64,000 nt of DNA from Neobacillus dielmonensis (GTDB lineage: Bacteria > Bacillota > Bacilli > Bacillales > Cytobacillaceae). Numbering within the stretch: position 1 is the stretch's first letter; each line of letters begins with the position of its first letter. The notes under the pieces were generated by a model. The model searched no databases. It saw only the letters and a program-made list of their open reading frames with translations, and was not told where the DNA came from. Position numbers and translations under genes: made by a program. Of the stretch, positions 54,162 to 63,958 are shown piece by piece. Location: contig NZ_HG942058.1 in NCBI RefSeq assembly GCF_000612665.1, positions 1 through 64,000 of the forward strand, in the 5' to 3' direction.

Positions 54162-54545
54162 TTACTTTTTTATTAAGCCAACATCTCTGTTTTTTCTATT
54201 TTTAACTTCATCCATTTTTGAATAGAAACTTTCCTCTAAATCAATATCAAAATAGTTGGCGATCTTAGTGATATAGGCCAAGCAGTCTGCAAATTCTTTA
54301 CCTAAATCCTCTCTTATGGAAGCCTTAGCTATTTCAAATGCTTTATCCTCTTCCATACCTTCATTTTTAAAAGTGTTGGTCATATTGAAAGCTTTACGGA
54401 GCTCCTCAGCAACTTCAGCAACCTCAGTCGTTAGTAGCATGTAATTATTTAATAAAGATGATTTTGCTTTCTCATAATTGTCAGTTTTTATTTGCCAATT
54501 CATTTCCTTTTGATATTGCTTAGAAAACTCTTGTAGTTTTTTCAT
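54162..54545 (-). CDS. MazG-like nucleotide pyrophosphohydrolase
   Basis: A ~127-residue all-helical protein with the MazG metal-binding pattern. TEVAEVAEELRKAF supplies the E-x-x-E helix and EFADCLAYITKIAN the E-x-x-D helix (about residues 42-55 and 88-101). An N-terminal helix (LQEFSKQYQKEMNW) and a C-terminal SKMDEVKNRKNR complete the fold. MazG-type enzymes hydrolyse (d)NTPs to monophosphates, often to clear aberrant nucleotides. The start is the ATG at 54545 (MKKLQEFSK) or 54554; GGGTGCAAAAA gives weak support. It stands alone. Confidence 0.82.
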   Translation of the reverse strand: MKKLQEFSKQYQKEMNWQIKTDNYEKAKSSLLNNYMLLTTEVAEVAEELRKAFNMTNTFKNEGMEEDKAFEIAKASIREDLGKEFADCLAYITKIANYFDIDLEESFYSKMDEVKNRKNRDVGLIKK

Positions 54546-54554
54546 TTTTTGCAC

Positions 54555-55057: not shown

Positions 55058-55854
55058 TTACTTTAGACCATTTTTATTGGGCTGTGTTCGTTCCAATACG
55101 ATAGCAGCTACTATTGGCAAATGATCTGATGCTAAAGTGTTTATTACTTCTTTTTGTTCAATTGATATGTCTCCTGAGGTAAAAATATAATCGATACGTT
55201 CGGAAGGATACGAAGCCGAATAGGTATAGGCTTCAGGACTATCGGCAAATACATCTTGGAAATGTTTATACATCGACTGAATTTCACTGCTTACTGGTCC
55301 GCATTGAAATCACCCATAATTACTTTTGGTCCTTCTGATTGTCCTGCGATATCAATAATTTCTTGCGTCTGGATGTGACGTTCTGCCGTTGTTAAGGCCA
55401 AATGTGTATTAAAAAAGTGAAGTTGATTTCCTTTTACATTAATCGTCGCTTCAAGGAGGCCTCGCTGTTCCGTTTTTCCAATCTTAGTTAAGGAATGATT
55501 TTCGGAATGCAAGATTGGATACTTACTTAAAATTGCTGTCCCATACTGACGGCGAGATTCACCTTCATTTAATGGAGCCTTGTCCAAATTGGCTGCATAA
55601 ACATAAAACATTCCCATTCGCTCAGCCAGCCACTTTGCCTGATCTTGAAAATCGCTGCGTTCAGACCAGTGGTTGTCTACTTCCTGGAGTCCGATGACAT
55701 CAGCCCCTTCATCCTCGATGGTCTTGGCAATTCGTTTCAAATCTAGTACTCCGTCAACGCCTTCAGCGTGGTGAATGTTATAGGACATTATTTTAATATT
55801 AACCGATCCCCTTTTGGCAAACTCTATTGTAATCTTCGAGGCTATTGATTGCAT
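55058..55854 (-). pseudogene. Endonuclease/exonuclease/phosphatase (EEP) family protein, one-base frameshift
   Basis: The first frame (55854 to 55291) has IKIMSYNIHHAEGVDGVLDL, VIGLQEVDNHWSERSDFQDQ (metal-binding Glu), HFFNTHLALTTAERH and MGDFNADQ, then TAA. The second frame resumes as PVSSEIQSMYKHFQDVFAD and has SERIDYIFTSGD and ASDHLPIVAAIVL. Adding one C to the CC at about 55280 gives FNADPVSSEI and joins them. All EEP motifs are then present. It is either a young pseudogene or an assembly error. Substrate could be nucleic acid, phospholipid or another phosphate ester. Confidence 0.8.
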
Positions 55855-56071: not shown

Positions 56072-56100
56072 AAAGGAGAACCACAACAGAGTTCTCCTTT
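56072..56100 (-). terminator. Terminator of the jet operon
   Basis: Perfect 10-bp stem AAAGGAGAAC / GTTCTCCTTT, followed on the minus strand by AATATTTAAA, about 45 bases past the jetC stop. Confidence 0.75.
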
Positions 56101-56143
56101 CAATTTGCCGTTCATAGCTAACCTTCCAGATTGAAAAGTTCCT

Positions 56144-59100
56144 CTAAAACAAACTCAACTCCACATCATCAAAAGTCCGTCCGCCATGCTGCAAGACCTC
56201 TCTAATCATTTCACCTTGTTTCTGCTGGCTCAATTCCAACTTCCAGTAAACAGGAAAACGCCGGCTGACGTCCAGTTTAATCAATTCAGGCGGAGCCAAC
56301 ACTATCCACTGGAACCGCAAAATATCGGCAATCGAGAAAATCGGATCCAAAATATGGGCAGAAACCGCTTGGCCAAACGGATTATCGGTAATTAAAACCG
56401 ACCAGTTGTTGTTGTGTTCCTGCCGTTTAAACGTCATGATCATCATCATAATCATCGTTCTAGCTGCCAGCAGCTGACCGCCGCTCCCCTTGGCTTCCAC
56501 CTTTGAACCTTTATTTAACGTCTCCCAATCGGTGTAATGGTGCTTCCTCGGTTTTTCATATAAAAACGCATTGGTCGTCTGAGGCTTATAAATCGCCAGT
56601 TTCGGATAACGATTCCGAAGCGAAACCAGCACCAACTGATTATCATCGATATATTTCCTCAAGGTACTTTCAGGAATATTTTCAATCGATTCATCACTTT
56701 CTAGCAGCTGCTCGATAGTTTTAGTAAAATGCTCTCGCAGTAAGCGGCGATATTCTTCTTCATCAGCGGTTTCAATTTCTTTTAAACGCTCGATTTCCAC
56801 AAGCGGGAAGGTGTATCCTTCCTTGTTCTTGATTTTCATCCTTTTAACCATGTCTTTTAATGATTGAAAAATTCGAATCACTCGGTAGACGGCCCGGTCC
56901 ACCCAAATTTCCTGGGCATTCTCGGCTTTTTGTTTGTCATCCTTCAACTTCAGCAACTCGTTTTGGATAAACTCCATGACACTTAAAACAATATTTATCC
57001 CCGAACGAATGGAATCACTTTCTAGCTGTGGAAGGAGGTGTTGAAGGCTGCTCTTTAGAGGTCCATCAATTCTCTCATCCTGAAGGACCTGGCTCAGATC
57101 TTTCAATCGCTCTTTAAAACCTTTATGATATTGGGTTTGACGATTGGTTAATTCATTATTTTGGCCGATCCATTTTTGAATTAGTTTTTCCGGTTCCTGC
57201 TTAATGGGGTCTTTATATCCGTCCGGGATTTCTCCAACATGCTTGAAATTAAGGACATGGGTTTTTAAAATATCCTGTTGTTTTTCCAATTGCTGCTTAC
57301 GCCAAATTAAGTCTTTTATAATCTTTTGCTGGTCATATAGATCTTGCTTAATCTTTGTCAGCTCTTCTTCGATTTCTTGCTCTTTATCTTCAAGGTTCAC
57401 TTCCGCCCAAGGGTCAGAACTGCGGTGGTGGTTCCTCAGGATTTGTTGTTCTAGCTTCAACTTATTATTCCGTTTTTCAATAATCTGTCCGCCAAGAAGG
57501 TCGGCCTTTCTCCTTACAGATACTAACTTATCAAGGAGCTGTTTCAATTCCACCTGTTTCCCTTTAAGTCTTTCCTTAAAAATCTCCCTTGGCTCTAATG
57601 GAATAGCTTTGTCCATCCATGCCGGCTCAAGCTCTTCTAAAGCAGTCTTTTTCTGTTGCTGATCCATGAATTGATATTCTCTTTTCGCTTTCTCCGCTGC
57701 CAATTCACTATTCGCATTATGAATTTTTTGCTGAAGAGATTGCCAGCTCTTTACCATCGGACCAACTTCATAAAAGATGGAACGCCTTAACAGTGGTGTC
57801 TCTTCTTCATTCATATGGAGAGCCTCGCTTTTTGGAAACTCGATATCAGGAAGAATCTCTTTTAAAAAGCCTGTTTGCATCTCCGAATGCATTTTCCAAT
57901 GTTCAAATGTCTTTCTCCAGTTAGCAAGACGTCCTTCTCTCTCTTGTTTATCCTGATCTAAAGTACCTATACGTTTAACAAGTACCGCTTCTTTTGTCTG
58001 AGCCTCCGATTTCAAGTCACTATATTCTTGAAACTGCTTATAAGCCGCTATCCAAGACTCCATCTCGTTTAATTTCCTCAGGCCAATTTGCCGGTCTTGG
58101 TCATTTTGCTTCATCTTTTTCACAAGCTCTTTAAGGGTCGAGTCTATCGAAACTAATTCTTGTTCTAAAAGCTTCTTCTGACCTTCGAGATCCGTCAAAT
58201 GCCCGTTGAGATCTTCCTCTTTCTGAAGGATTTCCTGATAAGTGGTAACGGAAAGAACTTTTACCGTCTCCACCAGCTGACCAACATCCTCTTGCCTGGA
58301 CCTTACCTTCTCTAAATCACGGGTAAAACCAGCTGTCAGGGCAGACAGATTTTCCTTCCACCGGTTCCATTGATCGGGTTGAAACGCCATCGAAATTCCT
58401 TGTTCCCGAATAATCTCAAACGGTAGGGAGAATGCCTGATTCATCCTTTCTCGTATAAAAATCGGTACAGGAGAATGAAGCAATAACGTTTGTAAACTAA
58501 CTTGATTAATGTTCTTTTCCCAATCCTGCTGATGAACCACAATTCCATAGGCCAATAACGGATAGCGTTCCATAACTAAGGATTGTTCTTCCCCACTCAA
58601 CTCCTGAAGCAGCTGAGTCCCATACATGGTCGGAATGCCTTCATCCGCCAGCAGGTCGGCAATTTTCTTAACATCATGGTTGGCCACCCAATATTCCCCA
58701 TTCACCAAAGATGTATCCAATTGGTGATACCAGTACTCTTTTTGGATATGGTCATATTGGGACCGCAATTTTTCTGCTTCCTGTTTCAACTGCTCGGAAA
58801 TGTCCAGCCAATCATCAGCAGAAAAGGCTTGAAATTCCTGGTCAGATAAAAAGTAGCGGCACCAATTTTTATGAAAGGAATGTTCCGCCTTGATTCGTGC
58901 TTCTTTTTTCTGTTTTATTTTATGCAAGTCAGCTTTTTTCCCGCTAATAAGGGCCTCAATTGTTCCTAATTGATGTTTTGCCTGCCCCTGCTTTTGCTGC
59001 AGCAAAGTCGTTTCCGCTTGCATGTCTTCTAAAGCCGCCACAAGCTCCTGCATTTCTTTCGAAAGTTTACGCTGGACACTATCCGGGTCACGGTTAACAT

Positions 59101-60604
59101 CCCGCCCGTATTTCTGCTCCATCCCTATCGCCTTTTGGTTATGGGCCTTGATAAAATTCGTATAAGTGCCCAACTTGGACCGAACACCATTTAACTCCTG
59201 TTGTTCGAGGTTCATTTGCGATTGGATTGATTTTATTTCTTTTACGAGCCTCGCTTCTAACGAATGGAACTTTCCCAAATCATCTCGTATTTCTAATTCA
59301 ATCGTCTTCCAGTTTTCCGCAAGCTGCAACTCGATTTTTTCCATCTGAACTTTTTCTTCATTCAAATTCTGGGTTTCTTCTAAAAAATCTATCCGGGCAT
59401 CAATAGCTTCCAACGCCTGAGTGGATTCAGCATAATCCTTAAGGGCGATGTCCACATTTAATCCATGTTCTTCCGTTTCAAGTACTTGTTGCTTCTCTTC
59501 CAATTCCTTGACACGCTCTTCAGCCAGTTGGATTTGACCGGAAATATCCTCATACGAACGACATTCTTTCGCATACTCCAAATTATCCTTTTGCCAAAAA
59601 AATTCAGCCTGCTGCTTTTCGGTATTCCGTTGATCCTCTTCCCACTTATTCTGGTCAAATTGATTGGTCTGCTTCTGTTCTTCCATCCCAAAATAAAGAT
59701 AATTCGCCCGGTCATGATGCTCCTGCACCTCTACCTCCAAGCTTTGCCCTTCTTCTAACGTGGCTTTGATGGGCACCAGCTTTTCCTGGATCAGCTGATA
59801 AGCTTCCTCCCGTTTTAAAAGCTGCGGTAATTTTTGAGCAATAATCGAATTGTCCCGAAAAATCTTGATAAGATTTTCTTCCTGGTCCTCTTGCAAATAG
59901 GCACTAATTTCCGGAATAATCAGATGGTGAAACAATCCAAAGTTATCCAGGCCTTTTTTAAAATAATGCTCAATCCCTCCCTCATCCCGGTTAATCTCTT
60001 TCATCTGGCGCCATTCCGCTTTTTCAATGCCATAGGAAGAGAGATATTGGAAATAAGCATTTTGTTTCGAGCGGGAATAAAATTGAAACTGCTGCTTATG
60101 TTTCTTCAGCCAGTTCTCCCACTCTTCATATGTAGTGGTCAGCTTTTTCTCCTCATCGTATAAAGGAATGGTATCAATGGTCCAATCCTCTGGTTTGCGG
60201 TATTTGCTCGTATATAAAAAGTACTGGGGCTCTGTTTCAACTTCATCGTTGTCTTGGGCCGTCTTGCGTGCCGTCACGCAAATCCCGGTCACTAACCACT
60301 CAGCGGGATAGGTATCTAACCGCCATTCCAGCGCCACATGAAAGGTATAAGGATTAAACTGCTGCTTTTCATTATAAAACAGGGCATCAATATGGTTCTC
60401 CCCATTCTTTCCCCAAGTCGAAAGCGGCATCAACGCTTGAAACATCATCTGCAGCAGCATCCCTTTACCGCCGCCATTAACCAAGGTTAACAAGGCATGC
60501 TGGGGCTCTTCCTCATGGATAAAATCAAAAATCGTATTTTCATAGTGCTTTTTCATCTTGTCATACCGCACACCGGTAATCCGGACTTTTTCAATTCTAG
60601 GCAT
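56144..60604 (-). CDS. jetC: Wadjet JetC: MukB/SMC-like ATPase
   Basis: A ~1486-residue SMC-like ATPase. The start is the ATG at 60604 (MPRIEKVRITGVRYDKMKKH), with GGAGGTGAAA inside the jetB end; the frame to 60613 uses a GTG too close to that site. Walker A reads LTLVNGGGKGMLLQMM near residue 45, where the usual Ser/Thr after Lys is Gly. Long coiled coils fill about residues 260-1300, split by a globular hinge-like part (about 560-780). The C-terminal head has KGSGGQLLAARTM (signature) and SVLITDNPFGQAVSAH (Walker B), with Asn where most SMCs have the catalytic Glu. It should form the motor of the antiplasmid condensin. Confidence 0.85.
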   Translation of the reverse strand: MPRIEKVRITGVRYDKMKKHYENTIFDFIHEEEPQHALLTLVNGGGKGMLLQMMFQALMPLSTWGKNGENHIDALFYNEKQQFNPYTFHVALEWRLDTYPAEWLVTGICVTARKTAQDNDEVETEPQYFLYTSKYRKPEDWTIDTIPLYDEEKKLTTTYEEWENWLKKHKQQFQFYSRSKQNAYFQYLSSYGIEKAEWRQMKEINRDEGGIEHYFKKGLDNFGLFHHLIIPEISAYLQEDQEENLIKIFRDNSIIAQKLPQLLKREEAYQLIQEKLVPIKATLEEGQSLEVEVQEHHDRANYLYFGMEEQKQTNQFDQNKWEEDQRNTEKQQAEFFWQKDNLEYAKECRSYEDISGQIQLAEERVKELEEKQQVLETEEHGLNVDIALKDYAESTQALEAIDARIDFLEETQNLNEEKVQMEKIELQLAENWKTIELEIRDDLGKFHSLEARLVKEIKSIQSQMNLEQQELNGVRSKLGTYTNFIKAHNQKAIGMEQKYGRDVNRDPDSVQRKLSKEMQELVAALEDMQAETTLLQQKQGQAKHQLGTIEALISGKKADLHKIKQKKEARIKAEHSFHKNWCRYFLSDQEFQAFSADDWLDISEQLKQEAEKLRSQYDHIQKEYWYHQLDTSLVNGEYWVANHDVKKIADLLADEGIPTMYGTQLLQELSGEEQSLVMERYPLLAYGIVVHQQDWEKNINQVSLQTLLLHSPVPIFIRERMNQAFSLPFEIIREQGISMAFQPDQWNRWKENLSALTAGFTRDLEKVRSRQEDVGQLVETVKVLSVTTYQEILQKEEDLNGHLTDLEGQKKLLEQELVSIDSTLKELVKKMKQNDQDRQIGLRKLNEMESWIAAYKQFQEYSDLKSEAQTKEAVLVKRIGTLDQDKQEREGRLANWRKTFEHWKMHSEMQTGFLKEILPDIEFPKSEALHMNEEETPLLRRSIFYEVGPMVKSWQSLQQKIHNANSELAAEKAKREYQFMDQQQKKTALEELEPAWMDKAIPLEPREIFKERLKGKQVELKQLLDKLVSVRRKADLLGGQIIEKRNNKLKLEQQILRNHHRSSDPWAEVNLEDKEQEIEEELTKIKQDLYDQQKIIKDLIWRKQQLEKQQDILKTHVLNFKHVGEIPDGYKDPIKQEPEKLIQKWIGQNNELTNRQTQYHKGFKERLKDLSQVLQDERIDGPLKSSLQHLLPQLESDSIRSGINIVLSVMEFIQNELLKLKDDKQKAENAQEIWVDRAVYRVIRIFQSLKDMVKRMKIKNKEGYTFPLVEIERLKEIETADEEEYRRLLREHFTKTIEQLLESDESIENIPESTLRKYIDDNQLVLVSLRNRYPKLAIYKPQTTNAFLYEKPRKHHYTDWETLNKGSKVEAKGSGGQLLAARTMIMMMIMTFKRQEHNNNWSVLITDNPFGQAVSAHILDPIFSIADILRFQWIVLAPPELIKLDVSRRFPVYWKLELSQQKQGEMIREVLQHGGRTFDDVELSLF

Positions 60605-61355
60605 CTGTTTCACCTCCAGCCCTTAACGTCGTCAGCACAATGTCACGCATTTCTTCATAGCGCGCTTGCTGGTGATAGCCTTCTTCCAAACGTTCATATA
60701 ACTCTATTCTAGGAATCACGCGCTTTTCATCCTCGATAATATAAACGAGTCCTTCGTCTCTAAGCACCCTTATGGCTGTATGGATAAGTCCAATATGTGT
60801 CCTTCTTGTAGAGGAAATTCGTTCGTCCTCGTTTTCTGTATCCGAATCGACTGCCATCGAGCCCCACAGTTCGGCCATTTCATTGACCGCCAGCCCATAG
60901 GCCTCACTGAACTTCCCTTCGGTATCCTTATTCTCCTTATCCCACTCGGCCAATAGCTGGGTCATATTTTTTTCCAGCAAATAATAAGATACACCGGCAT
61001 GTTCCCAGCGAAGATTGGAGGTGGAAGGTATATCAATTTCCGCTAGAAAAACGAAAATAATCAAATTCATCAGGTAAAAATGCTTCTTCGTTTCCACTTC
61101 CCCATATCGTTTCTTAAATTGGGTATAAGAAGTGGCAAAGATCGATCCTTCCGGGCGGGCAACCAAATGAATGCGGTCGGCCGTTTGGATAATCCGTGTC
61201 CTCGATTCCTCCGCTAAAACTTTCAAGGCATCCCGAACTCCGTCCTCTTCAAAATATGGACTCATCATCGGATCATTCGTTAACACCATTTTCCGATTCA
61301 ATAATTGAAAAAAGATCTTGGCCGCATCCTGCAGCTGCTGTGTTGAAATACTCAA
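60597..61355 (-). CDS. jetB: Wadjet JetB: KITE/MukE-like subunit
   Basis: A 252-residue protein starting with TTG at 61355 (MSISTQQLQDAAKIFFQLLN) after AAAGGAAGTGATG. The N-terminal winged-helix half has LLNRKMVLTNDPMMSPYFEE and RIHLVARPEGSIFATSYTQF. The second half has GLVYIIEDEKRVIPRIELYE and a C-terminal helix. This is the layout of the MukE-like (KITE) partner in Wadjet, possibly of the DUF6063 group. It should dimerise and bind the JetA kleisin and DNA. It overlaps jetC by eight bases, and the palindrome GGTGCCTGGCACC lies just upstream. Confidence 0.8.
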   Translation of the reverse strand: MSISTQQLQDAAKIFFQLLNRKMVLTNDPMMSPYFEEDGVRDALKVLAEESRTRIIQTADRIHLVARPEGSIFATSYTQFKKRYGEVETKKHFYLMNLIIFVFLAEIDIPSTSNLRWEHAGVSYYLLEKNMTQLLAEWDKENKDTEGKFSEAYGLAVNEMAELWGSMAVDSDTENEDERISSTRRTHIGLIHTAIRVLRDEGLVYIIEDEKRVIPRIELYERLEEGYHQQARYEEMRDIVLTTLRAGGETDA

Positions 61356-61371
61356 AACATCACTTCCTTTA

Positions 61372-61384
61372 GGTGCCTGGCACC
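61372..61384. repeat. GGTGCCTGGCACC palindrome
   Basis: Perfect 13-bp inverted repeat between jetA and jetB. It overlaps no gene and is of the GTGCCAGGCAC type scattered in Bacillus genomes. Role unknown. Confidence 0.5.
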
Positions 61385-61385
61385 A

Positions 61386-62873
61386 TTACTCCGTTATCCG
61401 CAAGACAAACGGGGAAATACTTACACCCTTCCACTGAATCATGGGCTGATTGGCGTCAATCAAAGAGGAAATGGTCTTCCCCTCTAGCTTGAAAAATCGA
61501 TCCTGTCGGCGGACTAAATGAGTGAGCAGGATTAACCGTTCATCCTCATGCTCTTTCTCGGCATCCAATTCAGGAACCGCCAAAGACTCACTGTGAAACA
61601 GCATCCACAAATCGACCGTTTCCTTTTGTTCCAGCCACTTCTCCTGTAGCGACTCAGGAATATCTCGCAATCTGGAAAGATAGAACTCTCCTTTTTCCAG
61701 CAGTTCAACAAAAAGCGGCTCCCACAATCGGACTACCTTGTCCCAATCCACTTCCCGCTTATGATGCTCTACTTCTTCGGTATCCTCTTCGACAACGTCT
61801 TCTTCTTCATCTATCAGAATATCTGTTTCCTGCTCCATCCAACCCCAATCCAGCGGATAAATAAAATGAGGTTGTGGCGAAAACAAAGGTTCTAACAGCA
61901 TTCCCATATCATCCGGGTGTGGAAGTCCTTCGAGCACCAGCCAATCCTGAAAATAACTCTTCTGAAACGTCACATTCTGCTGTTTCCAAAAGAGATTGGG
62001 AAATTCATAGCGGAGCTCAATTTCCAAGCGCATATTCTCCACCACATAACTTGCCAGCTGGTCATGAACCCTTCTGGTTTGTTCCAGTTTCTCGGCTATT
62101 TCATAATGCTGATTGGAAGACGAAATCCGTTGCAGCAGCTGTCGCATTTGCTGAAAGCGGGTTCGCTCTTCCTGAAATTGCTCCTTTACCTCTTGTTCAC
62201 GGCCGCTCCTGAGTTCATGCTCTTGTAGAAAAATAATCTTCGGATTCCGCTTCATGCTTTCCCGATAATCCAATTCCCTGGCAATCATCCGTTTTACCCG
62301 TGCCATCAAATCATCTAACCCGGAAAGCGCCTGTTGAAAATGGCCATTTTTCACTAAGTGCTCAATATACAGCTGGTCAATCGTAATCTCCAGTTCCTGA
62401 AGGATTTCCCGGCTCATAAAAATTAATTCTTTCGCTTCATCCGAGCAGCGATACACCGTCTTGCCGCCTTTTTCCCACTGGGAGGTTTCCCGGTCTTCCA
62501 CTAAATATCGAAAACGATGTTCCTTGATTTCTTGTTCCTTTTCATCAAACCACTTGGCGGTAAACGGCTGATGCAGTTCAGCTTGTCCGCTCCAAAGCAA
62601 TCCGTCTACAAACCTCTGAATCAACTCATCCTGATTGTCGGGCTCCAGGTTGATCTGTAATTCGTTGATACAAGATTTCGTGATTCCTACCAAATCCTGC
62701 TTTTTTCGATCTGGATTATTTTCAATTTCGCGGTAAAATACCTCCAAGAGGACACTTAGGGCCAGCATTTGTGCATAATCCTTCAAAGCTGCAAGCTGCA
62801 TGCCAGATCCCAAATTCCATATTGGGTTTAACCGCTTCATTCGTTCCCCAAAGCCTTGCCATCGCACTTTCAT
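61386..62873 (-). CDS. jetA: Wadjet JetA: kleisin (MukF-like)
   Basis: A 495-residue protein. The N-terminal winged-helix/helical part has NLGSGMQLAALKDYAQMLAL and ITKSCINELQINLEPDNQDE. A central coiled-coil region spans about residues 150-290. An acidic linker at about 350-370 (a run of Glu and Asp) separates it from the C-terminal domain. This matches the kleisin subunits of Wadjet (the DUF5716-like JetA group) rather than type I DUF3375, judged from layout only. It should bridge JetC heads and bind JetB. The ATG has AAAGGAGTAAGT inside the jetD end; only two bases separate the genes. Confidence 0.8.
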   Translation of the reverse strand: MKVRWQGFGERMKRLNPIWNLGSGMQLAALKDYAQMLALSVLLEVFYREIENNPDRKKQDLVGITKSCINELQINLEPDNQDELIQRFVDGLLWSGQAELHQPFTAKWFDEKEQEIKEHRFRYLVEDRETSQWEKGGKTVYRCSDEAKELIFMSREILQELEITIDQLYIEHLVKNGHFQQALSGLDDLMARVKRMIARELDYRESMKRNPKIIFLQEHELRSGREQEVKEQFQEERTRFQQMRQLLQRISSSNQHYEIAEKLEQTRRVHDQLASYVVENMRLEIELRYEFPNLFWKQQNVTFQKSYFQDWLVLEGLPHPDDMGMLLEPLFSPQPHFIYPLDWGWMEQETDILIDEEEDVVEEDTEEVEHHKREVDWDKVVRLWEPLFVELLEKGEFYLSRLRDIPESLQEKWLEQKETVDLWMLFHSESLAVPELDAEKEHEDERLILLTHLVRRQDRFFKLEGKTISSLIDANQPMIQWKGVSISPFVLRITE

Positions 62874-62875
62874 AC

Positions 62876-63958
62876 TTACTCCTTTATCCGTCCAATATTA
62901 TCAAGAGACAGCACTTCCTGCGGAACTCTCCGCTTCTCCTCCCAAAGCTGTTGGATCCGTTCAGCCAAGTCCGGTCGTCCATGCTGCTGAAAATCTTCCA
63001 CCACCCGTTGCAAATAGGTACGATTCTCATTTTGATTCTTTTCTGTGTGGTTAGTTAAATATGTATCAAGCATTGCTTCATAAATTGATACAGCCAGACC
63101 AATGTTGGCAGAAGGATAGGTTTCTTTTAACCTCACATAAATCCCCCATCCTTCCGGATCAATATCCCCGACATAATCAATCGTTACAGCCTCCATGTTG
63201 GTGATATCATGTAAGAAATTAAAGCTTTTCTCAATCTTCTTACCTTCTCCATAAATCACCAAATCCGGTTGAATCCCCTTAATATCCTTGCCACGATTGA
63301 TTAATAATCTACATGTATGATAAAAAGATTGATTCTCTACGATAAGAACGGTTTTGGCATTTCGAATGTCACCATGAGGCGCTAGCCAAAAAGCAAACGG
63401 CTCCCCATAGACTCTAGCTTTCAAATCATCCAACGTGATCTGCAATCGCTGCAACAATCCAGTACCCTCATTGGCAAGGAATTTTTCTTCCCTAAACAAC
63501 TGAAACGATCGCTCTTCCCTTGTCACCCAGGTGTATTGTTCGATTTGTTTTAAAAAAGAATAGAGGATTTCGATTCGCTTCCATTCTTGAACGGTTTGCC
63601 ATTCGGGATGCTGCCGGTATTTGCTTAGATTCATAAGGTTAGATACAGCCATTATTTGTGTATCACTCCACTGAGTCGCTAGGACTGCCTTTTCCAGCCA
63701 CCATTCGGTATGCAAGCTAGGTCTTCTCCCGTTCAAAGGACTTTTCTTAACGGGGGTAACAATACCCTCTTCTGTTAATTCATTCATGATTTGAACAAAA
63801 TAACGGTAACCGTTCTCGGCTTGATAGCGGATGGGTTCTTTTAGTTTATCTTTGATGAGGTAATTTTCTAGTTGTTGGATATGTATCTTTTTTCGTTTGG
63901 TTGGCAATTGAAGCGCTTTTAGATATTCCTGTAACCACGTCTTCATCTTATCCTTCAT
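62876..63958 (-). CDS. jetD: Wadjet JetD: Toprim nuclease
   Basis: A 360-residue protein with an N-terminal winged-helix region (VQIMNELTEEGIVTPVKKSP) and a C-terminal Toprim domain. The Toprim residues are clear: TVLIVENQSFYH (Glu near 208) and DYVGDIDPEGWGIY (D-x-D near 265-267). JetD of studied Wadjet systems is the topoisomerase VI-like nuclease that cuts plasmid DNA after loop extrusion. Here it is the first gene of the operon, with AAAGGTGG before the ATG; promoter lies within or past the right end of the window. Conserved Toprim acids suggest an active nuclease. Confidence 0.85.
   Translation of the reverse strand: MKDKMKTWLQEYLKALQLPTKRKKIHIQQLENYLIKDKLKEPIRYQAENGYRYFVQIMNELTEEGIVTPVKKSPLNGRRPSLHTEWWLEKAVLATQWSDTQIMAVSNLMNLSKYRQHPEWQTVQEWKRIEILYSFLKQIEQYTWVTREERSFQLFREEKFLANEGTGLLQRLQITLDDLKARVYGEPFAFWLAPHGDIRNAKTVLIVENQSFYHTCRLLINRGKDIKGIQPDLVIYGEGKKIEKSFNFLHDITNMEAVTIDYVGDIDPEGWGIYVRLKETYPSANIGLAVSIYEAMLDTYLTNHTEKNQNENRTYLQRVVEDFQQHGRPDLAERIQQLWEEKRRVPQEVLSLDNIGRIKE

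Follow-up and report, generated by a model that had tools for sequence, protein, structure and literature searches.

Can a Wadjet system, the model for a motor that recognises a plasmid by extruding DNA, work with an ATPase of the structural maintenance of chromosomes (SMC) family whose ATP site departs from the canonical one? The question is raised by a four-gene operon, jetD-jetA-jetB-jetC, near the end of a 64,000-nucleotide stretch of Neobacillus dielmonensis DNA (hereafter the window: positions 1-64000 of the 141-kb contig NZ_HG942058.1 in the 4.56-Mb draft assembly GCF_000612665.1). We find that the locus adds one more ordinary member to the known Wadjet systems of type III, as a preliminary description of this DNA had rightly proposed. 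The part deserving specialist attention, which that description overlooked, is the altered ATP site of JetC: judged from the aligned sequences, every type III JetC examined is without the catalytic Glu, and the clade of the window's protein has undergone a second loss, that of the Walker A Ser/Thr. A search of the open-access literature, exclusive of subscription papers, preprints and supplements, found no discussion of the type III ATP site and no paper combining Wadjet and DUF3584.

The preference for type III over types I and II, previously expressed on the grounds of gene order and protein size, is borne out by profile comparison. The PADLOC type III models are the top match for all four proteins (JetD3 385, JetA3 583.3, JetB3 289.9 and JetC3 719.6 bits), whereas the best score of any of them against a type I or II model is 34 bits (JetD1, for JetD) and JetA, JetB and JetC have no match to those models at E values up to 1. 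JetB additionally matches PF19539 (DUF6063, 76.2 bits). The four genes are adjacent and co-oriented, as expected of the type III gene set, the lengths of JetA, JetB and JetD (495, 252 and 360 aa) are those of PADLOC type III, and the jetD-first order recurs in 12/12 type III loci read, all from the window's genus, whereas jetD lies 3' of jetC in all six type I and II loci read, where jetA and jetB were recognised by size and place only. PADLOC Wadjet III, with the same order and sizes, is therefore the best family for these genes, which show no defining difference from it; a type I or type II system is excluded by the PADLOC scores together with the motifs of JetC described below. A nuclease-less condensin of the MksBEF or MukBEF kind is likewise excluded, as jetD stands intact in the operon.

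The canonical SMC ATP site comprises GK(S/T) in Walker A, an SGGE signature and an Asp-Glu pair in Walker B. The JetC of the window has GKG, SGGQ and Asp-Asn at these places and therefore belongs to neither type I nor type II, although this departure is not in itself a trait that defines type III. Its description as a MukB-like ATPase is sound, and the split ABC head of such proteins is indicated as well: the model of the C-terminal head comes closest to the structures of Wadjet JetABC and MukB, and Walker A could be mapped by profile. The Walker B Asp sits at the end of a strand in the head model, and it is followed by Asn in 223/223 full-length type III JetC rows but by Glu in all type I (21/21) and type II (34/34) loci, hhalign placing the type III Asp-Asn onto the DEAF of the other two types. 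The Asp-Asn pair is kept even between type III proteins that are only 14-18% identical, and none of the 223 rows departs from the Walker A Lys, the signature Ser or the Walker B Asp.

Gly replaces the Walker A Ser/Thr in 93 of the 223 rows, the window's included, and always in company with a Q-type signature; the remaining 130 retain GKT or GKS, 120 of them with Glu in the signature. With the exception of one long-branched row, the GKG group forms one side of a single tree branch. Two divergent type III loci, L042 and L048, have GKT or GKS and SGGE in JetC, yet carry DNPFG, which shows the loss of the Glu to be a change distinct from the loss of the Walker A Ser/Thr. Two further JetC residues, Asn205 and Glu208 (208 and 211 when the 1489-residue form is numbered), are also invariant in the 223 type III rows; at the place of Glu208 type I has mostly Met, as read by eye in a register that profile alignment leaves unsettled, and the type II register is ambiguous. 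The Asn205-x-x-Glu208 segment resembles the SMC Q-loop pattern, for which reason Glu208 might serve as a base.

As to coverage, one search scored 7990 candidates and found 796 relatives, 120 of them among the matches listed. The 223 rows are what remains of 229 once six short ones (P0031, P0067, P0244, L058, L068 and L082) are dropped; they contain the window's protein twice, giving 222 different sequences, and many close relatives. The type I and II controls all come from the window's own taxonomic class and were found by one model each (19/19 places for type I, 30/47 for type II), supplemented by six loci of the window's genus; the type I locus L100, whose N-terminal end is absent, was left out of the Walker A reading.

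JetD matches PF09983 (JetD_C) at 40.9 bits, against a cut-off of 22, and its predicted fold matches Pseudomonas aeruginosa JetD, MksG and Topo VI-A, so that its earlier assignment as a Toprim nuclease holds. Of 78 rows found, 70 align over 330 aa, the window's among them, and in every one of these the Toprim glutamate and the DxD motif are identical. By tblastn, JetD has no match in 50,697 phage records and two in 72,556 plasmid records, both of the latter on replicons of 0.9-1.1 Mb, and a phage or plasmid origin is accordingly unsupported.

What the altered site may mean for the working of the system can be approached through better-studied relatives. Cleavage by the Wadjets studied requires ATP and a functional JetC ATPase, according to passages of PMC10586767, and JetABC is described as an ATP-dependent loop extruder in a portion of PMC12287153. 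The E1042Q substitution in the type I homologue MksB, at the same place as the type III Asn, impairs the ATPase (PMC10123090), and the Lamassu protein LmuB generally has Gln for the Walker B Glu and is suspected, in those same passages of PMC10586767, of low or absent hydrolysis. The ATPase requirement, the MksB defect and the LmuB substitution together lead us to expect slow turnover in type III, whose JetC likely binds ATP and turns it over slowly or by way of another residue. With Asn in place of the catalytic Glu, ordinary hydrolysis-driven loop extrusion is therefore not to be assumed; extrusion and the cutting of circular DNA have been shown for other Wadjet complexes, and no PDB chain, those of Wadjet included, is a sequence relative of the window's four proteins.

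We think it rather probable that this complete type III operon encodes a clamp gated by ATP binding, with slow or non-standard hydrolysis, and not an ordinary SMC cycle. In such a clamp the JetC heads, likely as a dimer, would embrace DNA together with the kleisin JetA and the KITE protein JetB; ATP binding, enabled by the intact Lys47, signature Ser and Walker B Asp, would close the heads; the closed complex would capture a segment of circular DNA; and JetD would be recruited next, to break the DNA by means of a metal site formed by Glu208, Asp265 and Asp267. By homology with its relatives, the system would seek out small circular plasmids and cut them. A bolder proposal, put forward tentatively and with somewhat less than an even chance in its favour, is that type III is a plasmid-cutting SMC that has left the standard ATPase altogether, either as an ATP-gated clamp that senses small circles without processive extrusion or with its carboxylate moved to JetC Glu208 near the Q-loop.

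Two published observations weigh against slow turnover: an ABC transporter can bypass a missing Glu through changed neighbours, as described in a section of PMC7544095, and DndD is reported as an ATPase in a part of PMC4611135, though Thr occupies the Glu place in two of the three loci above the family cut-off. The DndD case, for which those two loci were read, also favours the view that type III is an ordinary Wadjet with usual ATPase rates and loop extrusion, catalysis falling to Asn1408 or to a different residue, JetC Glu208 for instance, and JetD cutting the fully extruded small circle. Such a view gains from the unvarying Lys of Walker A, Ser of the signature and Asp of Walker B, from the invariance in type III of Asn205 and Glu208, which by eye are absent from type I, and from a gene set and head fold like those of other Wadjets; it has to contend with the ATPase defect of MksB E1042Q and with the additional disappearance of the Mg2+-binding Walker A Ser/Thr from the window's clade, and we regard it as possible but doubtful. 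Since it overlaps our favoured explanation, in which hydrolysis via another residue is also allowed, the likelihoods attached to the two do not sum to one.

A housekeeping complex that organises the chromosome in the manner of MukBEF or MksBEF, with JetD acting rarely and no part in defence, would suit the distribution of type III JetC, which 51 of the genus's 61 genomes carry at E values of 1e-50 or better, so that it is nearly a core gene. It is, however, hard to reconcile with the JetD catalytic residues, all of those checked being kept, or with a genome that holds three divergent type III systems (L048, whose jetD is broken, L049 and L021). Moreover, when seven loci of the genus were compared, six from the common subfamily and one from that of the window, their flanking ORFs (open reading frames of at least 90 aa, within about 1-3 kb) had no common homologue at E 1e-8, so that the system, though common, looks unlike one fixed core locus; a housekeeping role seems to us improbable. 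Decay of an inactive copy might be read from the altered ATP site itself and from the adjoining phosphatase/nuclease gene (55291-55854), apparently frameshifted, but all four frames are open and of full length, the JetD residues are intact, and an Asp-Asn pair invariant in 223 rows, among them proteins of 14-18% identity, points to selection and not to decay, which we reject as very improbable indeed.

Within Wadjet III the window's JetC falls in the GKG/SGGQ clade, whereas the other rows have GKT or GKS and mostly Glu in the signature. Wadjet II, as represented by JetABC of Neobacillus vireti (PDB 9qe0), shares the SMC head fold, the MukB-like architecture and a Toprim partner, but places jetD after jetC and has GKS and DEAF in 34/34 loci, and no Wadjet chain in the PDB matches the window's proteins in sequence. 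Wadjet I, or MksBEFG, of Escherichia coli, P. aeruginosa PA14 and Corynebacterium glutamicum is alike in head fold (8as8, 8dk2, 8dk3) and in the JetD/MksG fold and differs in having jetD after jetC, a JetC of about 1100 aa and DEA(F/Y) in 21/21 loci. Lamassu LmuB is likewise an SMC/Rad50-like defence ATPase generally lacking the catalytic Glu but, going by the passages of PMC10586767, it is a Rad50-like protein of about 650 aa with other partners, and Gln takes the place that Asn has in type III. In DndD (TIGR03185), another SMC-like ATPase, the residue that follows the Walker B Asp is again not Glu (two of three loci above cut-off read DTLLGRLD, the window DNPFG); DndD differs in its GKT Walker A, its length of about 660 aa and its role in DNA phosphorothioation. 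DndD is not known to have a kleisin or KITE partner.

The operon is complete, with all four frames open and the jetD start inside the window, 331 bases from the next gene upstream. The tight coupling on the minus strand recorded in the preliminary description agrees with the ORF coordinates, including the gaps of 2 and 30 bases. The listed jetC frame begins at GTG 60613, in frame and three residues longer than from ATG 60604; the start is better set at the latter, since GGAGG lies just 5' of it and the resulting protein of 1486 aa agrees in length with database copy P0001 and with most close relatives, and with this start the jetB/jetC overlap is the 8 bases claimed earlier. The terminator placed at the operon's end stands as a likely one: the hairpin is stable, yet it has a weak T-run and went unlisted by the scanner for consensus terminators.

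Table 1. Coordinates in the window of the jetDABC genes, of residues and motifs of JetD and JetC, and of the downstream hairpin.
Feature	Positions	Strand	Remarks
jetD	62876-63958	minus	360 aa; predicted Topo VI-A/Spo11-like Toprim nuclease; first gene of the operon
jetA	61386-62873	minus	495 aa; kleisin-type subunit by PADLOC family assignment (JetA3, 583.3 bits)
jetB	60597-61355	minus	252 aa, TTG start; KITE-type subunit by PADLOC JetB3 and PF19539
jetC	56144-60604	minus	1486 aa from ATG 60604; MukB-like SMC ATPase (PADLOC JetC3)
JetD Glu208, Toprim glutamate	63335-63337	minus	identical in 70/70 aligned rows
JetD Asp265-x-Asp267, Toprim DxD	63158-63166	minus	identical in 70/70 rows; coordinates checked by translation
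JetC Walker A, N-G-G-G-K47-G48	60461-60478	minus	Gly replaces the Mg2+-binding Ser/Thr
JetC Glu208 in invariant Asn205-x-x-Glu208	59981-59983	minus	candidate (hypothetical) replacement carboxylate
JetC signature S-G-G-Q, 1374-1377	56474-56485	minus	Q at the aligned position in 93/93 GKG rows
JetC Walker B end, D1407-N1408-P-F-G	56372-56386	minus	Asn in the place of the catalytic Glu
Hairpin downstream of jetC	56072-56100	minus	-14.1 kcal/mol; 0/200 shuffles equally stable

The view that the surroundings form a defence island is partly supported. The next gene upstream of jetD, co-oriented with it and just past the window (L003:12291-14488), encodes a helicase of Schlafen group 3 (PF09848, 308 bits; PADLOC PDC-S41 68, AbiO 47 and Nhi 37 bits) and overlaps a MazG-like gene; a second MazG-type pyrophosphohydrolase, at 23 bits against a cut-off of 22, is encoded near the downstream end of the operon (54162-54554, minus strand). 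Further minus-strand frames are a short ORF (L003:15558-15803) with GTYHSHP, which we take to be a JAB/MPN-like motif, and one of 484 aa (L003:17426-18880), beginning about 5.5 kb upstream of jetD, with a PADLOC CorA-like score of 70 bits; neither has a Pfam match at 0.01. The gene at 55291-55854 (minus strand) belongs to the PF03372 endonuclease/exonuclease/phosphatase family, its apparent frameshift lying near 55293, where the next frame resembles a continuation. No second complete defence system was identified in the stretch scanned around the operon.

In 48 of the 51 genomes of the genus with type III JetC the best copy reaches at least 1275 bits against the model used, while that of the window scores 719 and so falls into a rarer subfamily, which shares 28-29% identity with the common one; the closest named relatives of the window's JetC are Neobacillus. 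The genome of the window has one JetD and one type III JetC. Among 299 genomes sampled from the phylum, at least 41, that of the window being one, have a match to a single type III JetC model at E values of 1e-30 or better; the count was made by hand and is a lower bound, as no more than that model was used. In the genome that holds L049, the third of the divergent type III systems has its jetD split into two ORFs (L048:2394-3499), beside a GKS/SGGE JetC.

If a type of Wadjet does work without the usual ATPase Glu, then either extrusion would be unneeded to tell plasmid from chromosome or the hydrolysis of SMC proteins would be open to rewiring, and a clamp without extrusion, or a moved carboxylate, would constitute a new mode of action of an SMC complex. 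For the genus itself, the presence of type III in 51 of 61 genomes may hamper genetic work in these bacteria.
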